Notes under the pieces: generated by a model
Told to the model about the DNA's origin: nothing
Databases searched by the model: none
Seen by the model: only the letters and a program-made list of their open reading frames with translations
Assembly (NCBI GenBank): GCA_947629025.1
Contig: CANRCC010000002.1
Location: 1-64,000 of the forward strand
Source: an uncultured Bacilli bacterium
GTDB taxonomy: Bacteria; Bacillota_I; Bacilli_A; RF39; UBA660
DNA length: 64,000 bases
Direction: 5' to 3'
Shown here: positions 12,176 to 33,549 of the stretch, one piece after another
Numbering within the stretch: the first letter of the stretch is position 1
Layout: every line of letters begins with the position of its first letter
Program-made: the position numbers and the translations under genes

Positions 12176-12784
12176 CTATAAATATTTGATTATCTCACTA
12201 ATTTTCTTATAATCATTATATATAGGATCTTCAAAATACTGATCTAATGTATTACTTGGAATATCATTATTTATTTTAACTACTCTTGCTGGTATTCCAA
12301 CAACAGTTGCATTTTTTGGTACCTCATTTAAAACTACTGCACCTGCGCCTATTTTTGCATTTTCATTTACAGTAAATGAACCAAGTACTTTAGCACCTGC
12401 TGATATCATAACATTATCTTTAATAGTTGGATGTCTTTTTCCTTTTTCTTTTAATGTTCCGCCAAGTGTTACTCCTTGATATATAACAACGTTATTCCCT
12501 ATTTGAGCAGTCTCTCCAATTACAACGCCAATACCATGATCTATAAATAATCTTTTACCTATTTGTGCTCCTGGATGTATTTCAATTCCAGTTTTTCTTT
12601 TTGATTTTTCTGATATTAATCTTGCTAAAAAATAATGTTTTTTTATATATAAATAATGAGATATCTTATAATAAATCATTGCTTTAAAACTAGGATATAA
12701 TATTGCTTCAAAACTAGATTTTATAGATGGATCTTTTTCTTTAATAACATCTATTTGTTCTTTTATAAATTTTATTACTTTCAT
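12176..12784 (-). CDS. cysE: serine O-acetyltransferase
   Basis: GIEIHPGAQIGKRLFIDHGIGVVIGETAQIGNNVVIYQGVTLGGT; start at internal Met with RBS aaggggaat. Confidence 0.93.
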   Translation of the reverse strand: MKVIKFIKEQIDVIKEKDPSIKSSFEAILYPSFKAMIYYKISHYLYIKKHYFLARLISEKSKRKTGIEIHPGAQIGKRLFIDHGIGVVIGETAQIGNNVVIYQGVTLGGTLKEKGKRHPTIKDNVMISAGAKVLGSFTVNENAKIGAGAVVLNEVPKNATVVGIPARVVKINNDIPSNTLDQYFEDPIYNDYKKISEIIKYL

Positions 12785-25109: not shown

Positions 25110-26150
25110 TTAATTATTCATATTATTTTCCAATAATGAATCAAAATTTTTCCCGGATAATTTTTTAAAATTTACTTTAAGTTGATTATATTCTTCTTCC
25201 CATGATAAATAGTTTTTATCTTTTCTATGATCTGGTAATTCATAATTTTTACTTAAATAATCAGAAAAATACAGAGTAAACTTGGTTGCACCATATACAT
25301 TTAAGTGAGCAAAATCTAAAAAATCTTTAGAATAATCAACATCAAAATCGTTAACCAAATTAAAATTCAATACATTATATTTATTATCTTCAATAATTGA
25401 AATTGCATCATTTATTTTTTTATTTTCTTCTAATTTATATAATCTTTTTGGTACTATGAACAATACATTTAAATTTTCTTTTTTTATATAATTAAGTAAT
25501 TTCTGAAGTACTATTTTATTTTCTTCAGGTAATTCTATTATATCATTTGAATAGTCACTCTTTATTTGTTTTTGTCTAACAAGATTATCATATGACATTT
25601 TGTAACCCTTGTAATAACTTTTATCTAATCCTAAATTAAACGAAATTACCCATGGTTGTTTCCAAATATCATGATATAAAAATTGACTAAAATAATAATT
25701 TATATAATCTTCTTTTTTTATGTTTGAATAGTTTAAATGAGCATTTATTGCATCAAGCTTATTTTTTGAAAATTTCATAGTATCTGTAACTTTTCTTATT
25801 GCTCCTTCTTCTATTTTTGAATATGAATCTGCAACCCTAGATATATCTATGATATATAAATTAGGTGTTTGTCTTTTTTCTGATTCTTTTATTAAATATT
25901 GAACAGCAATAAAAGGTTGTGCACTAGAAGATAGACATCCAGTTGTAAAACCATATTTATTATAAGCGAGTACAGTATTAAAATGTGAATGAACATTGCT
26001 ACCACCTATATAAATAACATCTAAAGAATCTTTTGGTTCATCGTAAAAATATGATATAGGATTTTTTTCTATCCATAATATTTTAAAAACAAAACAATAT
26101 AAAATTATAAAAATAATTATAAAAATAATAAATTTGAAAAAATTTTTCAA
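25110..26150 (-). CDS. SGNH/DltD-like membrane-anchored protein
   Basis: N-terminal anchor, DVIYIGGSNVHSHFNTVLAY block I, and DFAHLNVYGATKFTLYFSDYL (D-x-x-H-L-N block V). Confidence 0.75.
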   Translation of the reverse strand: MKNFFKFIIFIIIFIILYCFVFKILWIEKNPISYFYDEPKDSLDVIYIGGSNVHSHFNTVLAYNKYGFTTGCLSSSAQPFIAVQYLIKESEKRQTPNLYIIDISRVADSYSKIEEGAIRKVTDTMKFSKNKLDAINAHLNYSNIKKEDYINYYFSQFLYHDIWKQPWVISFNLGLDKSYYKGYKMSYDNLVRQKQIKSDYSNDIIELPEENKIVLQKLLNYIKKENLNVLFIVPKRLYKLEENKKINDAISIIEDNKYNVLNFNLVNDFDVDYSKDFLDFAHLNVYGATKFTLYFSDYLSKNYELPDHRKDKNYLSWEEEYNQLKVNFKKLSGKNFDSLLENNMNN

Positions 26151-26162
26151 GATATCACCTTC

Positions 26163-27710
26163 TTAAAATTGTCTATATATAAATGTAGCTGGATCATAAC
26201 CTGGACCATAACAACCAAAAATTATTATTAAAAATAATATAGCATAAATAATAAACCAACGAACAACAATATTTTGTTTTAAAATTTTTTCCCTAACATT
26301 TCCCTTTTTTTCTAATACTTCTATTATAAATACTAGAAATATAGCAATTATGAAAATTAGAAATTCTAACATTCCACCCTTACTGGCTAAGTCGAACAAT
26401 TTATTTCCAGTTGTTACATGATTTTTAAAAATACTCTTTATTATTTGAATAGCATTAGAAACAGAACTAGCTCTAAAGAAAATCATTGAAAATGAAAATA
26501 AAAGATAAGTTCTTATATTCTGATATAATCTATATATAAAAGAATTAGTATTGATTTTTAATTTATTATTAATTTTTAATGCTACTGGTTGCAATATATC
26601 TTCAAGGAAAATATAGATAAATTGCAGTAATCCAGTACCAATTATAAATGTATATGCACCTCCATGCCAAATACCTATCAAAATCCACATGATGAACATT
26701 GATAAATATAGAGGTATTTTCTTACCTATCTTCTTTCCAAATATTTTTTTACATCTTACATTCAAAGATTGCATAAAATTAGACTTTAATAGTGGATAAA
26801 ATATATAATCTTTAAGCCATGCTCCTAATGTTATATGCCAATTTCTCCAAAATTCTGTTATAGTTTTTGAAAGTAGTGGTGATGTAAAGTTTTCTGGTAA
26901 TTTTATTCCTATTATTTCTGATATTCCCATTATTATATCTATTGAACCAGAAAAATTGGAATACAACTGTAAAGTAAATAACAATACTGCTATTAATATG
27001 TATATTCCACTATATGATGATAAATTTCCATAAATTGTATCGACGATTACCGCAAATCGTTGCGAAATTACCATTATTTTAACAAATCCAAAGCATATTC
27101 TAAGTAATCCACTACAAAATGAATAGTAATTAAATTTATGACCTTCATATAGATCATTTTTAGTATCATTATATCTAATAAAAGGACCAGAATTTAAAAT
27201 TGGAAAATATGACATAAATAACATACATTTAAAAATATTTTTTTGTGCTTTGCATGTACCTCTTTTAATATCTACTAAATAACTAATCATTATTAAGGAA
27301 TAATAGCTAATTCCTATGAGTGAATTTCTATAAACTAAATTAAATGTATAATTAATATTAAATAAATTACAAAAATGATTTAATGTAGTTAAAAATAGAT
27401 TAGTATATTTTAAATATAATAAAAGACACAAAATTATCCCAATTCCAAGCAAAAAAAATAAATTACCCTTTTTTGTAGTCTTATATTTATCTATTAAAAG
27501 ACCAAAAATATATGATGACAAAAGAACTACTAAGGCCTGTATTATAGTATATAATGAAAAATTATCATAAAACAAGAAAAAAATACTTGATATTAGTAAA
27601 ACCATCCACTTAAATCTCTTAGGTGTAATAAAGTAAATTACTATAACAATTATGCTAAATAATGCAAAAATTATTGACGTTAAACCCATATTACTTCTCC
27701 TTAACTTCAT
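26163..27710 (-). CDS. MBOAT family O-acyltransferase (AlgI/DltB-like)
   Basis: PILNSGPFIRY, ITEFWRNWHITLGAWLKDYIFYPL, MWILIGIWHGGAYTFI. Confidence 0.93.
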   Translation of the reverse strand: MKLRRSNMGLTSIIFALFSIIVIVIYFITPKRFKWMVLLISSIFFLFYDNFSLYTIIQALVVLLSSYIFGLLIDKYKTTKKGNLFFLLGIGIILCLLLYLKYTNLFLTTLNHFCNLFNINYTFNLVYRNSLIGISYYSLIMISYLVDIKRGTCKAQKNIFKCMLFMSYFPILNSGPFIRYNDTKNDLYEGHKFNYYSFCSGLLRICFGFVKIMVISQRFAVIVDTIYGNLSSYSGIYILIAVLLFTLQLYSNFSGSIDIIMGISEIIGIKLPENFTSPLLSKTITEFWRNWHITLGAWLKDYIFYPLLKSNFMQSLNVRCKKIFGKKIGKKIPLYLSMFIMWILIGIWHGGAYTFIIGTGLLQFIYIFLEDILQPVALKINNKLKINTNSFIYRLYQNIRTYLLFSFSMIFFRASSVSNAIQIIKSIFKNHVTTGNKLFDLASKGGMLEFLIFIIAIFLVFIIEVLEKKGNVREKILKQNIVVRWFIIYAILFLIIIFGCYGPGYDPATFIYRQF

Positions 27711-27792
27711 ATATGACTAATAAACAAATTCAGTATTTAGTAAAATACTGAATAAAATTATAATATATAAAAATAAATTGGTCAAATATTTT

Positions 27793-28527
27793 TTAAATCA
27801 AATTTCCATTTGTAATAGCAATATTTTGTCCTGTAATACTATTTGATTTGTCAGATAATAAAAATTCAAACATTGGTATTACATCTTCTATTTTTAAATT
27901 TTCTCCGGTTGTACTATTCATTGCATTTTGTTTTACAATTAATTCTGGAATATTTTCTAAAAATTTTGTTTCTATCATTGTTGGTGAAATTCCATTTATC
28001 CTAATTCCCTTATCAGAATATTCTGCAGATATTGCTTTAACAAAACCCAATAAAGCATATTTTGAAGTTACATAACTAGCTAAATATTTTGGAGGAATAT
28101 TTGTTGTGCATGATGTTAGCATCACAATAATTTTTCCAAATTTATTTTTAGACATTATTGGTATAATTCCATTTAATATTATTACAAGTGAACGAAGTGC
28201 TATATTTATGTCTGTTTGAAATTTTTCCCAAGTAATTTTATTGAATTTAATGTTTTCAAATTTTCCAGCTGGAAGATGTACAATATGTGTAGGAATCTTA
28301 TTCATATTTTTGATTTCTTCTACAAATTTATAAGTATCTTCTTCATCTAAAAAGTTCCCTTTTAATAAAATTAGTTTATCTCCTATTTCATTTTTTAATT
28401 CTTGTAATTTACTATCGTCACCGATATGATGAGCAATAATATAATCATAATCTTTATAGATTTTTTTTATTAAATTTGTTCCTATATCACTTGATGCACC
28501 TGTCACTAATAATATTTTCTCATTCAT
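27793..28527 (-). CDS. short-chain dehydrogenase/reductase (FabG-like)
   Basis: LVTGASSDIGTNL, catalytic YVTSKYALLGF, INGISPTMIET. Confidence 0.92.
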   Translation of the reverse strand: MNEKILLVTGASSDIGTNLIKKIYKDYDYIIAHHIGDDSKLQELKNEIGDKLILLKGNFLDEEDTYKFVEEIKNMNKIPTHIVHLPAGKFENIKFNKITWEKFQTDINIALRSLVIILNGIIPIMSKNKFGKIIVMLTSCTTNIPPKYLASYVTSKYALLGFVKAISAEYSDKGIRINGISPTMIETKFLENIPELIVKQNAMNSTTGENLKIEDVIPMFEFLLSDKSNSITGQNIAITNGNLI

Positions 28528-28951
28528 CTAGAACACCTACTTTCATTGTTCCTCTTACTACTTTTTTATTTTCTTTGTTTAATATATCAAATTTTATTGT
28601 AAATTGTTTAAATAAATCATTTTTTTCTACAACTTCACCTCTAATAGTTAAAGGACTATCAGAGATAAAGACAGGTTTTTTATATAATATATCTACCTCA
28701 TGAATCAAACTATACTTTCCAGGAAGATATACACCTGCTAATGTAGATAAAAAGGATGACGTTAACATTCCATACACTACCTTTTCTTTAAAACCTTTAG
28801 ATTTAGCATAAGCTAAATCAATATGTAATGGATTTATATCACCTGTAATTTTACAAAAATCATCTACCATATTTTCAGTTAAATTAACATTAAATTGTTC
28901 AATCATCCCAATTTTAATATCTTCATATTTGTAATTATTCATATTGACCAA
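28520..28951 (-). CDS. MaoC-like (R)-specific enoyl hydratase/dehydratase
   Basis: FCKITGDINPLHIDLAYAKSKGFKEKVVYGMLTSSFLS hydratase motif. Confidence 0.9.
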   Translation of the reverse strand: MVNMNNYKYEDIKIGMIEQFNVNLTENMVDDFCKITGDINPLHIDLAYAKSKGFKEKVVYGMLTSSFLSTLAGVYLPGKYSLIHEVDILYKKPVFISDSPLTIRGEVVEKNDLFKQFTIKFDILNKENKKVVRGTMKVGVLDE

Positions 28952-28980
28952 TCACCTACATATAATAATATTTAACAAAG

Positions 28981-29220
28981 TTAAATTCTTGATTTAATTA
29001 TATCAACCATTTCACCAACATTTTTCATTGTAGTAACCTCATTCATATTAAATTTCATACCAAACTCTTGTTCAACAGCTACCACTAAATTGATATGTTC
29101 TAGACTATCCCAATCTTCTATATCATCTGATGTTGTGTTTTCATTAACAGTTATACTCTCATCATCAAACACATCTCTAAATACATTATTTAATCTTTCA
29201 TATATTTCTTTATTTTCCAT
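28981..29220 (-). CDS. acyl carrier protein
   Basis: DDIEDWDSLEHINLVVAVEQEFGMKF (DSLEHI phosphopantetheine site). Confidence 0.93.
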   Translation of the reverse strand: MENKEIYERLNNVFRDVFDDESITVNENTTSDDIEDWDSLEHINLVVAVEQEFGMKFNMNEVTTMKNVGEMVDIIKSRI

Positions 29221-31001
29221 TATTCACTCACCTCTATAACATTATTTTTATTTATATATTCTTTTGATATATCTAATTTATATATTTTATTTCCTTTTTC
29301 ATCACAAGAAATTTCTTCAAATCCCTGTAAATCATAGAAATCACTAACCATTTTATTTTTCATTGTTGGATAATAATATCCATATATTTCTTTTATATTC
29401 TTTTCTTTAGCTTTTTTGACTAACATATCCATCATTGCAAATTCCATATTTCTTTTTAAGACTCTGCAACTCATAATCCATAAATCTATGTGCAATTCAT
29501 TTTTGTTTTTTATATTTCCTATTACTACAGTGATGACACCATTATCACCAAAAATATCTTCTAATTTACCATATAATTTTATATAATTATCATCTTTACT
29601 TACTTTTTCTATATCCGCTAATGAATATCTTTTTGTTGTAAGATTAAATTGATTACTTTTATTAGTTAACTGAGAAATTCTCTCTAAATAAATTGGTTTA
29701 AAGTTAGTTATTTCAGCTTTCATATTTAGTGACTTTAGATAATCATCATAATCATCAAATGTTGCCATCATTTGACTTCTCTTAGCATTATCTTTATACA
29801 TTTCACTTTTCTTTAAATCTTCTTTTGATAAATTAGTAACTTCAAAATATCCATTTCTATCAATTATTCTTATATAATTTTCTGGAACATCTATTTCTGG
29901 AACTGCAATTCCATCAATATAACTTTCAACGATTTTACGTTCAGCAGGATTATCATCTATAAAAACGAAACTATCTGCTCCCAAATTTAATTCTTCTGAT
30001 ATATCTTTCATATTCATATTTTTTGGATTCCAATTAGCTTTAATTATAATAAAATCGTCAGGTTTTAAAGCCCCACCCGGATGATTTAAACCAGCAATTG
30101 CATTTTCATAATCATTTTTAGAATTAACATTTAATATAATTCCTAGACTTTTTTGCTCCTTTAAATAATTTTGAAATTCATAATAAACTTGTCCACTAGG
30201 TACTTCTGGTCCTATTGATAAATTTTCTACACCATCATCACCAACTATTCCACCCCATAATGTGTTATCTAAATCTAAAACAATTGCTTTTTTATTTTTA
30301 CCATAAATAGACTTAATTATCTTCGCTATATTAAATGATAAATATGGTATAGCTGGAACTTCCATAGCATATTTATACATATGCCAGTAAAATCCACTTT
30401 CCCATTTATCTAATCCATAACAAGCAGAAACATAATTAATATCATTTATAAAGAAATTATTTGTCTTATTTTGATAATCATAAAACATCTGGTTAAGTCT
30501 TGTTATATAATTTATTTTTCCATGAATATCAGAAGCATCACGATTTCCAAATAATCTATACGCTGGATACTCAAAATTGTTTTGAATTATTGTTGCATTA
30601 TATTTTTTAAATAAACTTTCCCATATTTTTTCAAATTTCAAATATTCATTATCTAATAATTTTGATATATCTTCATCACTATCATAAATAGTAGGATAAT
30701 TTATTATATTTCTATTAGTCGTATGAATATATATAATATCTGGATTAAATTCATCTAATTCTTTGTTGTCAAATACAGCATCTTCATAAAATTTGTTATA
30801 TTCAGATTCATAGAATGTTGGCTTTATTCCGTAATTTAATAAAAATATTTCTAACATATTTTTAATTTCACTAGTTGTAGAACCACCTAATATTGCTATC
30901 TTTTTTTCTAACAAATTTTCTTTATTAAGTAATTCTCGTTTTATCTTCTTTTTATTTTTAATCAAATACTCAACATTAAAAGGATATTCTAACTCTTTCA
31001 T
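29220..31001 (-). CDS. FkbH-like HAD-IIIC phosphatase / acyl-ACP loading enzyme with GNAT-like C-terminus
   Basis: KAIVLDLDNTLWGGIVGDDGVENL, QLTNKSNQFNLTTKRY. Confidence 0.93.
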   Translation of the reverse strand: MKELEYPFNVEYLIKNKKKIKRELLNKENLLEKKIAILGGSTTSEIKNMLEIFLLNYGIKPTFYESEYNKFYEDAVFDNKELDEFNPDIIYIHTTNRNIINYPTIYDSDEDISKLLDNEYLKFEKIWESLFKKYNATIIQNNFEYPAYRLFGNRDASDIHGKINYITRLNQMFYDYQNKTNNFFINDINYVSACYGLDKWESGFYWHMYKYAMEVPAIPYLSFNIAKIIKSIYGKNKKAIVLDLDNTLWGGIVGDDGVENLSIGPEVPSGQVYYEFQNYLKEQKSLGIILNVNSKNDYENAIAGLNHPGGALKPDDFIIIKANWNPKNMNMKDISEELNLGADSFVFIDDNPAERKIVESYIDGIAVPEIDVPENYIRIIDRNGYFEVTNLSKEDLKKSEMYKDNAKRSQMMATFDDYDDYLKSLNMKAEITNFKPIYLERISQLTNKSNQFNLTTKRYSLADIEKVSKDDNYIKLYGKLEDIFGDNGVITVVIGNIKNKNELHIDLWIMSCRVLKRNMEFAMMDMLVKKAKEKNIKEIYGYYYPTMKNKMVSDFYDLQGFEEISCDEKGNKIYKLDISKEYINKNNVIEVSE

Positions 31002-31084
31002 ACTTTATCTCCTTCAATAAAATTATATCATTTATTTGTTTTTATTTCAATAAAATTATTGTATAATAAATCTAGGTGAAAAAA

Positions 31085-31408
31085 ATGAATATTGGAATAG
31101 ATATAGTTGAAAATAAAAGACTCAAAAATAAGAAAAAAGAATTTATTGATTACGTTTTAACAAAAAAGGAACAAGATGAATTTAATAAAAAAGGATATTT
31201 ATATCTTTGTGGTAGATTTGCAGTTAAAGAAGCAATTATGAAAGCACTACCAAACACAAAAGAATATAATTTTTTAGATTTTGAAATATTGACAAAGGAT
31301 GATGGTAGTCCATACGTTGTAAAAAACGATAATATTAAAATTTCAATATCACATGAAAAAAACTATACAGTAGCTACTGCACTATTATTATCAAAAAAAC
31401 AGAAGTAA
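31085..31408 (+). CDS. acpS: holo-[acyl-carrier-protein] synthase
   Basis: NIGIDIVENKRL, LCGRFAVKEAIMKAL, ISISHEKNYTVATAL; start set at the ATG after aggtg. Confidence 0.88.
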   Translation: MNIGIDIVENKRLKNKKKEFIDYVLTKKEQDEFNKKGYLYLCGRFAVKEAIMKALPNTKEYNFLDFEILTKDDGSPYVVKNDNIKISISHEKNYTVATALLLSKKQK

Positions 31409-31411
31409 AAT

Positions 31412-31965
31412 TTATACTTTATTATTAATATAAAATTTAGTAGCTTCTTCGTTATGTATAACCTTGGCTGGATTTCCTATTACTATAGAGTTATTTTCAA
31501 CATCAAAATTAACATACGAATTTGGGGCTATTAGTACATTATTCCCAATTTTTATGTTTCCAACAATAACTGCATTTGTACCTATCCAAACTTCATTTCC
31601 TATTTTTGGAGTACCAGCTTTTTTTCCTCTACTCTCCTGTCCTATCGTTACACCGGTTGCAATATTACAATTTTTTCCTATAGAAACATTTTCATTTATA
31701 ATTATTCTTCCAAAATGTCCTATGTAAAAACCTTCACCAATTTTTGTATTAATTCCAATTTGAAAATGATATTTATGTGAAAAAAATCGTAATTTAATTT
31801 TATATAAGATAATAAATATCTTTTTATTATTTTTAATATAGTATTGTAATTTTCTAAAATTTATAAAATATCTAACTTGGGGATAAAATATATTTTTAGA
31901 GATTACCCCCCCCTACAATATCTAAATAAATCTTTTTTTATTATTTTTTTTAATTCATTTTTCAT
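31412..31965 (-). pseudogene. hexapeptide-repeat O-acetyltransferase (CysE/CapG-like) with frame broken at a G8 tract; putative phase-variable gene, OFF in this sequence
   Basis: aaaggagt RBS then MKNELKKIIKKDLFRYCRGG* in frame 1. The other frame continues VISKNIFYPQVRYFINFRKLQYY...IGINTKIGEGFYIGHFGRIIINENVSIGKNCNIATGVTIGQESRGKKAGTPKIGNEVWIGTNAVIVGNIKIGNNVLIAPNSYVNFDV...GNPAKVIHN...KV*. One extra G (G9) or G6 restores one continuous ORF. Confidence 0.85.
31906..31913. repeat. C8/G8 mononucleotide tract inside the acetyltransferase coding region
   Basis: gattaCCCCCCCCtacaata read directly. Confidence 0.95.
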
Positions 31966-31995
31966 TTTTTACTCCTTTTTTTATAATTCAATAAT

Positions 31996-33549
31996 TTATA
32001 TTTTAGTTTTTTTCTTTTTCATCATTGTTTTAAATTTACATATAATATTTTTTAACATATCCAAATAATAATTAAATTCTTCTTTATTATGAAAAATTAA
32101 TACTACAATAATATTTGGAATTATTAATGTTAATAATACATTAAATAAAATTTGAACTAAATCGTTTCTAAATACTATATTAATACTAGTAATATATGTT
32201 ATAAAACAAGCAATTACTGTAGTAAATAAATATATATATATATCTTTAAAATATTGAATATATTTTTTGTCAAATATTTTCTTATATACTATTTTAGGAT
32301 AAGTATATATGTGTGTTATTAGATATGTCATGATTGTACCCATAAAAACACCTGCAAGACCAAATAATTTTAAAAATATAATTGAAAATGATATATTTAC
32401 AACTGATTCAATAATTGGAACTATTCTATCTTCATAAAATATTCCTGCTGCCTCTTTAAAACTACTTATACATAATTTTGTTATATAAACATAATTATTG
32501 ATTGTTAACGCTAATAATACATATTTTGATAAAATATATTGTTCTCCTACCCAAACTTTAATAAAACTTTCCATAACAACAAATATTCCTACTGAGGATA
32601 TCATTGCTAACCAAAAATTCAAAAACTGCATTTTTTTATATATATCATATACTTTGTCTTTGGACGAAGTTACTATCAAATTACCAACACTTGACTTGAA
32701 TGAAGCAAAAATTTGACCGATTAATGTATTTAATGAATTAATTATCATAAAATAATTTGAATATAAACCAACGTAATTAACTCCTAAAAAAGTAGATATT
32801 ATTAAATTATCAGTCCCTGCAACTAAAAATACTCCTATTTTATGAATGAACAAACCTTTAACTTTTTTTATTATATTATTTACTAAATCTTTTTCTATTT
32901 TACAAACTTGTTTATCCATTAAATATGGATATTTCTTATTAGCAATAAATGTTAATATCAAATTTTCAAGTAATCTCATTAATATTTTAAAACTTAAATA
33001 AAGTAAGTAATTTTTTGAATTTAATAAAATAACTATTTGGATTGAATTTAAAAATACTAGATAAAAAATATGTACTATATCTATTATATAATTTTTTTGA
33101 TTTGCATATAAAATTGATCTCTTATATGTCAACAAATAAGAACAAACAATGTCTATCATAAATAACAAATAAATTATTATAATTATCTTATTAGATATTG
33201 TAGTTTTTCCAACTATTACTGTTAAGAAAGGTATAAGTATTAAACTAAGTAAAAAAATTATTATAGCAATTGCTCTATAGCATTTTTTATAGAATTGCAT
33301 TAATGACTTTATTTGTTCGTTGTCATTTTTTGCAACTGGTTTATACAAATTATATATTATGGCAGAACCAATACCAAGTTCAACTACAGAAAGCATTGAA
33401 AATATATTATTGAATAAACCATTTATTCCAAGATATTCAGTTCCTAAAGTTCGAACAAATATCGCTTGTGATATAAATCCCAAACCCATACTTAAAAAAT
33501 GAACTATCAAAGCGCTTATCATATTTTTAAATGCATTATTTTTTCTCAC
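31996..33549 (-). CDS. polysaccharide flippase / oligosaccharide exporter (Wzx-like)
   Basis: 14-TM-like protein, FVRTLGTEYLGINGLFNNIFSMLSVVELGIGSAIIYNLYKP. Confidence 0.92.
   Translation of the reverse strand: MRKNNAFKNMISALIVHFLSMGLGFISQAIFVRTLGTEYLGINGLFNNIFSMLSVVELGIGSAIIYNLYKPVAKNDNEQIKSLMQFYKKCYRAIAIIIFLLSLILIPFLTVIVGKTTISNKIIIIIYLLFMIDIVCSYLLTYKRSILYANQKNYIIDIVHIFYLVFLNSIQIVILLNSKNYLLYLSFKILMRLLENLILTFIANKKYPYLMDKQVCKIEKDLVNNIIKKVKGLFIHKIGVFLVAGTDNLIISTFLGVNYVGLYSNYFMIINSLNTLIGQIFASFKSSVGNLIVTSSKDKVYDIYKKMQFLNFWLAMISSVGIFVVMESFIKVWVGEQYILSKYVLLALTINNYVYITKLCISSFKEAAGIFYEDRIVPIIESVVNISFSIIFLKLFGLAGVFMGTIMTYLITHIYTYPKIVYKKIFDKKYIQYFKDIYIYLFTTVIACFITYITSINIVFRNDLVQILFNVLLTLIIPNIIVVLIFHNKEEFNYYLDMLKNIICKFKTMMKKKKTKI

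Follow-up and report, generated by a model that had tools for sequence, protein, structure and literature searches.

A putative poly-G frame switch in an acetyltransferase gene of a surface-polysaccharide locus from an uncultured gut Bacilli bacterium

Repeat-based phase variation is best known from cultured pathogens. The nearest working analogue of the gene described here is NeuO, the phase-variable O-acetyltransferase of the Escherichia coli K1 capsule (PMC3046976). Both are left-handed β-helix O-acetyltransferases with a 5′ coding repeat at which slippage switches the frame, known in one case and predicted in the other. The NeuO repeat is a heptanucleotide that adds an N-terminal repeat extension and is prophage-borne, whereas the present gene has a homopolymer and lies in a chromosomal polysaccharide locus. 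NeuO acts on a surface polysaccharide, while the glycan role of the new enzyme is predicted from its locus; its nearest solved structures, unlike those of NeuO, are serine acetyltransferases.

Poly-G frame switches have been described from Campylobacter (PMC4965091), Neisseria lgtG (PMC3639595) and Bifidobacterium pili (PMC9187656), and the present gene adds to this known type. There, too, a G-run (about 8–12) lies in the reading frame of surface-structure genes, but the genes and the phyla are different; the case reported here comes from an uncultured, AT-rich family of Bacilli. It would place a predicted polysaccharide-modifying enzyme under a repeat switch in an uncultured, small-genome gut lineage. 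The gene is very probably a translational phase-variation (contingency) locus operating by G-run slippage, with an enzyme that, when ON, most likely O-acetylates the surface glycan.

The window, i.e. the whole 64,000-nucleotide stretch analysed, contains the following features at the switch gene:

31412–31965, minus strand: out-of-frame left-handed β-helix (hexapeptide) acetyltransferase gene, 184 aa with the tract in frame; the L095 orthologue is intact
31906–31913, minus strand: G8 homopolymer, putative slippage switch; L095 and L114 have G9 here
31903–31965, minus strand: truncated 20-aa frame readable with G8; TAA directly after the tract
31972–31976, minus strand: AGGAG ribosome-binding site
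31412–31906, minus strand: intact downstream frame, 164 codons; no internal ATG, GTG or TTG

The G8 length is exact in the window sequence, where it is one consensus call from a metagenome-assembled genome (MAG). An AGGAG ribosome-binding site (31976–31972) stands 5′ of the ATG (31965–31963), and the run starts 52 nt further on. With G8 the gene reads MKNELKKIIKKDLFRYCRGG*, a product of 20 aa closed by the TAA. When the frame was computed for lengths 5–13, tracts of 6, 9 or 12 G gave 183, 184 or 185 aa, and all remaining lengths gave products of 19–24 aa. The 164 open codons 3′ of the tract (31906–31412) contain no ATG, GTG or TTG, so rescue by an internal start is impossible. Out-of-frame tracts of this kind explain why gene callers miss such genes.

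The tract is improbably long for its surroundings. The window is 77% A+T (G 8.4% and C 14.6% on the plus strand), its longest other G/C run is 5, and Markov models of order 1–3 predict 0.003–0.03 runs of at least eight per window and 0.06–0.5 per genome. In the whole genome (a 1.12 Mb MAG of 36 contigs) there are three runs of at least seven G in all, and the two besides G8 both lie between promoter boxes. A preliminary description, made from the letters alone, had proposed that a G8 tract breaks the frame behind an RBS-preceded ATG at 31965, that one extra G gives 184 residues and that such a run is striking in AT-rich DNA; each of these points holds. A contingency locus is recognized by a repeat of improbable length close to the promoter or to the 5′ end of the gene, by one length class modulo 3 that yields the full protein from an otherwise intact gene, and by differing lengths or phases in relatives. 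The window gene shows the first two, and it shows the third between genera rather than isolates.

The relatives come from a homologue scan across GTDB in which each species was represented by one genome. The orthologue L095 (CANQXT010000033.1, uncultured Bacilli bacterium Lapin-016 bin44, a rabbit-gut MAG) is 95% identical in protein and has nine G at the site of the window tract; it is in frame, encodes 183 aa and reads MKKELKKIIKKDLFRYGGGYISKN.... The DNA of the two loci is 93.7% identical across 3.9 kb. The tract flanks differ, with TGTA inserted before the tract and one T lost after it in the window-to-L095 comparison, and the alleles thus differ by more than a single G. Past the tract there are 20 synonymous and 5 non-synonymous changes, giving a dN/dS of 0.06; the neighbouring flippase, taken as a control, gives 0.12. 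These values indicate that purifying selection acts on the acetyltransferase coding sequence, even though the window has it out of frame.

A pseudogene, newly frameshifted and beginning to decay, would also explain why the sole genome of the species has the gene out of frame, and the gene is patchy in the family (1/390 sampled genomes at E ≤ 1e-35). Yet the window copy is not decaying by the dN/dS of 0.06, its 164 codons are free of stops in DNA of 77% A+T, and the site of the frameshift is precisely the G8 run, which is retained as G9 in relatives; this is the least probable of the alternatives considered here. The earlier argument that an intact coding region speaks against decay is thereby strengthened. 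The same description had called for tract lengths to be compared across isolates or metagenomic reads and had named as counter-evidence uniformly G9 reads (an assembly error) or invariant G8 with accumulating downstream stops. What the comparison with relatives gave was G9 in frame in another genus, with differing flanks, beside a stop-free window copy.

The L095 genome (G251; tract coordinates the same as G266) is placed in another genus of the window's family. Its Smc protein is 46% identical to that of the window genome, against 70–72% within the window's genus. Vertical inheritance within one genus is ruled out by the contrast between this 46% and the 93.7% DNA identity of the locus, which implies that the locus moved horizontally between genera; by the sequences, both recipient genera kept a G-run at the acetyltransferase site. 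The otherwise 92–94% identical L095 locus (L095:3942–5522) lacks 5.4 kb present in the window at 25548–31022. This window-specific stretch encodes MBOAT and its partner, a short-chain reductase, MaoC and FkbH, and looks like a swapped acyl-modification module.

More distant homologues carry a G-run, another repeat or none. L114 (Clostridia bacterium MAG.400, 54% identical) shares the tract position, with an in-frame G9 (...FFRYYGEGGGYHF...). L096 (Clostridia bacterium Lapin-018 bin14, 60% identical) is without a G-run but has an in-frame (AC)20 right after the start (MARSIETVHTHTHTH...); the array, at L096:2946–3000 (CANRPR010000025.1), gives the protein start MARSIETVHTHTHT... and is the sole (AC)≥9 array in its genome. 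A more distant homologue (L061:1800–1809, genome G234) has an in-frame G10 mid-gene, where the run covers glycine codons just before the catalytic-histidine coil. In most of the other homologues among the 80 loci, neither a G nor a dinucleotide repeat is present at that place. The different repeats in related copies (G-runs at two positions, a dinucleotide array) point to repeated selection for switching this chemical step.

The closest intact member in the window's own genus (G004, locus L010; 60–61% identical, 190 aa in its longest ORF) is tract-free; every other homologue in that genus was either CysE or a more distantly related hexapeptide protein. The N-termini of tract-free homologues can be aligned with the 20 residues encoded ahead of the tract and share with them the motif D-L/F/I-x-R-Y-x-G (D-L-x-R-Y in the window), and hence the two parts flanking the run form a single protein. 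A pattern scan of viral contigs for the tract plus flanks gave no match. Acetyltransferase homologues on viral contigs are at most 55% identical and the best seven have no G or AC repeat, so that a phage origin, as for NeuO, is not supported. Four IMG/VR loci (L272–L275) carry a 50% identical acetyltransferase with no repeat tract.

The product was earlier taken for a hexapeptide acetyltransferase, and profile and model agree. The window product scores 52.7 bits against Pfam Hexapep (cut-off 27), and the model of the intact L095 protein (mean pLDDT 93.9) has three N-terminal helices followed by a left-handed β-helix, i.e. both the repeats and the fold of a left-handed β-helix acyltransferase. 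In this model helix 1 gives way to a loop at the tract-coded glycines 17–19, where a length change should be tolerated.

The best Foldseek matches of the model are serine acetyltransferases (TM about 0.75, 22–30% identity). A phase-variable enzyme acting elsewhere than on the surface glycan, e.g. a serine acetyltransferase for cysteine synthesis, would account for these structure matches and for the best profile matches; this is unlikely. All scores fall far below the family cut-offs (NCBIfam EpsC 93.5 vs 150; CysE 75.9 vs 210.65). The fold and the catalytic histidine, invariant in 33 sequences, are common to the window enzyme and CysE/EpsC. The serine-binding residues are Asp157 and Arg192-His193 in E. 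coli numbering (PMC9547175). These are not conserved in the window enzyme, which has GH in place of DH and no RHP. The eight CysE paralogues of the genus, among them the separate canonical CysE that the window genome encodes at 12275–12703, have both motifs. By its sequence the enzyme is thus related to serine acetyltransferase but is not one, and it is best read as an O-acetyltransferase acting on a sugar.

The gene neighbourhood also argues against a role away from the glycan, because the gene adjoins a flippase inside a polysaccharide locus:

20297–43004, minus strand: polysaccharide biosynthesis locus, by gene content
31996–33549, minus strand: polysaccharide flippase (Wzx-like, Polysacc_synt), directly upstream of the switch gene
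31076–31408, plus strand: 4′-phosphopantetheinyl transferase (AcpS-like), a convergent neighbour that is not part of the switch

The products of 20297–43004 include a Wzz/tyrosine-kinase type protein, LytR-CpsA-Psr, acyltransferase-3, MBOAT, FkbH, several glycosyltransferases, a Wzy-type polymerase, the flippase, an initiating sugar transferase and a UDP-sugar dehydrogenase, a content that marks this region as a complete surface-polysaccharide locus. The acetyltransferase gene is encoded within it, as would be expected of a surface-polysaccharide O-acetyltransferase. The flippase precedes the acetyltransferase gene also in L095 and in the tract-free G004 locus. The polysaccharide locus named in the preliminary description is therefore confirmed by its genes.

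Coding tracts of this type recur in the family. The pattern RBS-ATG-19..49 nt-G8+ is found in 31/246 family genomes; its reversed-pattern control is imperfect, with matches in 15/246, and a frame test was therefore relied on instead. Fifteen family coding tracts, the window's included, are followed by an ORF of at least about 130 aa that is open in one phase only. Five of these are ON and ten OFF, as expected for random phase. Given these one-phase ORFs, the window gene would belong to a type of switch that is common in its family.

The random-phase fraction bears on the possibility that the window call is an assembly or sequencing error, the true tract being G9 and the gene simply on. Homopolymers are error-prone in amplification and assembly, true G-tract lengths in Bifidobacterium breve were unlike the database sequence (PMC9187656), and L095 and L114 both have G9. 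Against this, the related coding tracts come from genomes assembled independently of one another, and about two thirds of them are OFF, the share that real random phase would give. Such an error is quite unlikely, and it would not remove the switch, since a G9 tract would still be a slippage site of the same kind.

Poly-G tracts are also found in promoters. In porA of Neisseria meningitidis a poly-G tract between −10 and −35 alters expression (PMC3639595). The same layout is seen in the promoter tracts of the window's family, where up to 38 such promoters occur in one genome as against the single gene porA; the mechanism differs from that of the window gene itself, whose tract is coding. The two other G-runs of the window genome have this form, TTGACA-AAAAGCGT-G10-TATACT (C6:63873–63902, at the end of L007) and TTGACA-AAAGGCAT-G9-TATACT (C26:111–139, at the start of L008). 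Both spacers lie within 140 bp of a contig end, 5′ of short, cut-off membrane-anchor ORF starts, and poly-G tracts may explain assembly breaks nearby.

A search for TTGACA-N-G7+-N-TATAMT, i.e. at least seven G between −35 and −10, with the reversed pattern as control, found the promoter in 41/246 family genomes (control 0). In a sample of the order it occurred in 51/289 genomes, all 51 of the same family, and the control never; in other families of the class it occurred in 3/131 sampled genomes. The genes behind these promoters mostly start with a membrane anchor; some encode leucine-rich-repeat or DUF285 proteins, and most are unknown to Pfam. G251, the genome of L095, has 38 near-identical promoters (loci L205–L244; TTGACAcc-Gn-tattaTATAAT and variants, with G8–G10 in the spacer), which precede paralogous membrane-anchored proteins. 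The spacers measure 15 bp in 30 cases, 16 bp in seven and 17 bp in one; this distribution, with one promoter at the optimal 17 bp, suggests few-of-many expression.

Near-identical promoters within one genome vary in tract length (G140, G247), and no ribosome is involved there. This bears on programmed frameshifting, in which the ribosome or RNA polymerase would slip on G8 before the TAA and deliver a fixed share of full enzyme from unchanged DNA. A −1 shift on the run does restore the frame, and a stop codon follows directly. Relatives with G9 need no such shift, however, and one relative has (AC)20, a repeat of the DNA-slippage type, so that this explanation is very improbable. Some low-level full protein could still arise from G8 via −1 ribosomal frameshifting or transcriptional slippage.

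The preferred reading, a DNA-slippage switch, is built on what was observed: the tract, the frame logic, a coding sequence that is intact and conserved, relatives with G9 in frame, and switches of the same type in the family. Slipped-strand replication would alter the length of the G-run, and only lengths divisible by three (6, 9 or 12 G) would yield full enzyme; the assembled cells with G8 would be OFF. The ON enzyme would be a cytoplasmic, acetyl-CoA-dependent left-handed β-helix acetyltransferase, most likely O-acetylating a sugar of the capsule or exopolysaccharide made by the surrounding locus. A population would then show acetylated and unacetylated glycan side by side. We infer slippage in living cells, its reversibility, the acceptor sugar and a benefit (phage or immune evasion). 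A slipped-strand contingency locus had been proposed at the outset, and the G9 tracts of L095 and L114, the (AC)20 homologue, the dN/dS of 0.06 and the common poly-G switches of the family all favour it.

On a wider scale, the window gene probably, though with somewhat less assurance, belongs to a contingency system that spans its lineage, an order of uncultured gut Bacilli. Each genome would drive paralogous surface proteins from poly-G spacer promoters, up to tens of them, together with 5′-coding poly-G switches, and polysaccharide loci with their own repeat switch would be exchanged between genera. The survey thus suggests a whole order of gut Bacilli diversifying its surface by poly-G switches. 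The literature searched, with incomplete coverage, contained no description of phase variation in RF39/Mollicutes-type gut bacteria, and within it the family-wide poly-G repertoire appears undescribed.

The genome of L114 (G253, Clostridia MAG.400) contains further tracts. At loci L255 and L250, G9 runs occur in frame close to the start of an acyltransferase-like gene and ahead of a glycosyltransferase-like ORF; the latter run shares a contig with the acetyltransferase tract and is about 4 kb away from it. A G10 promoter spacer is also present (L254).
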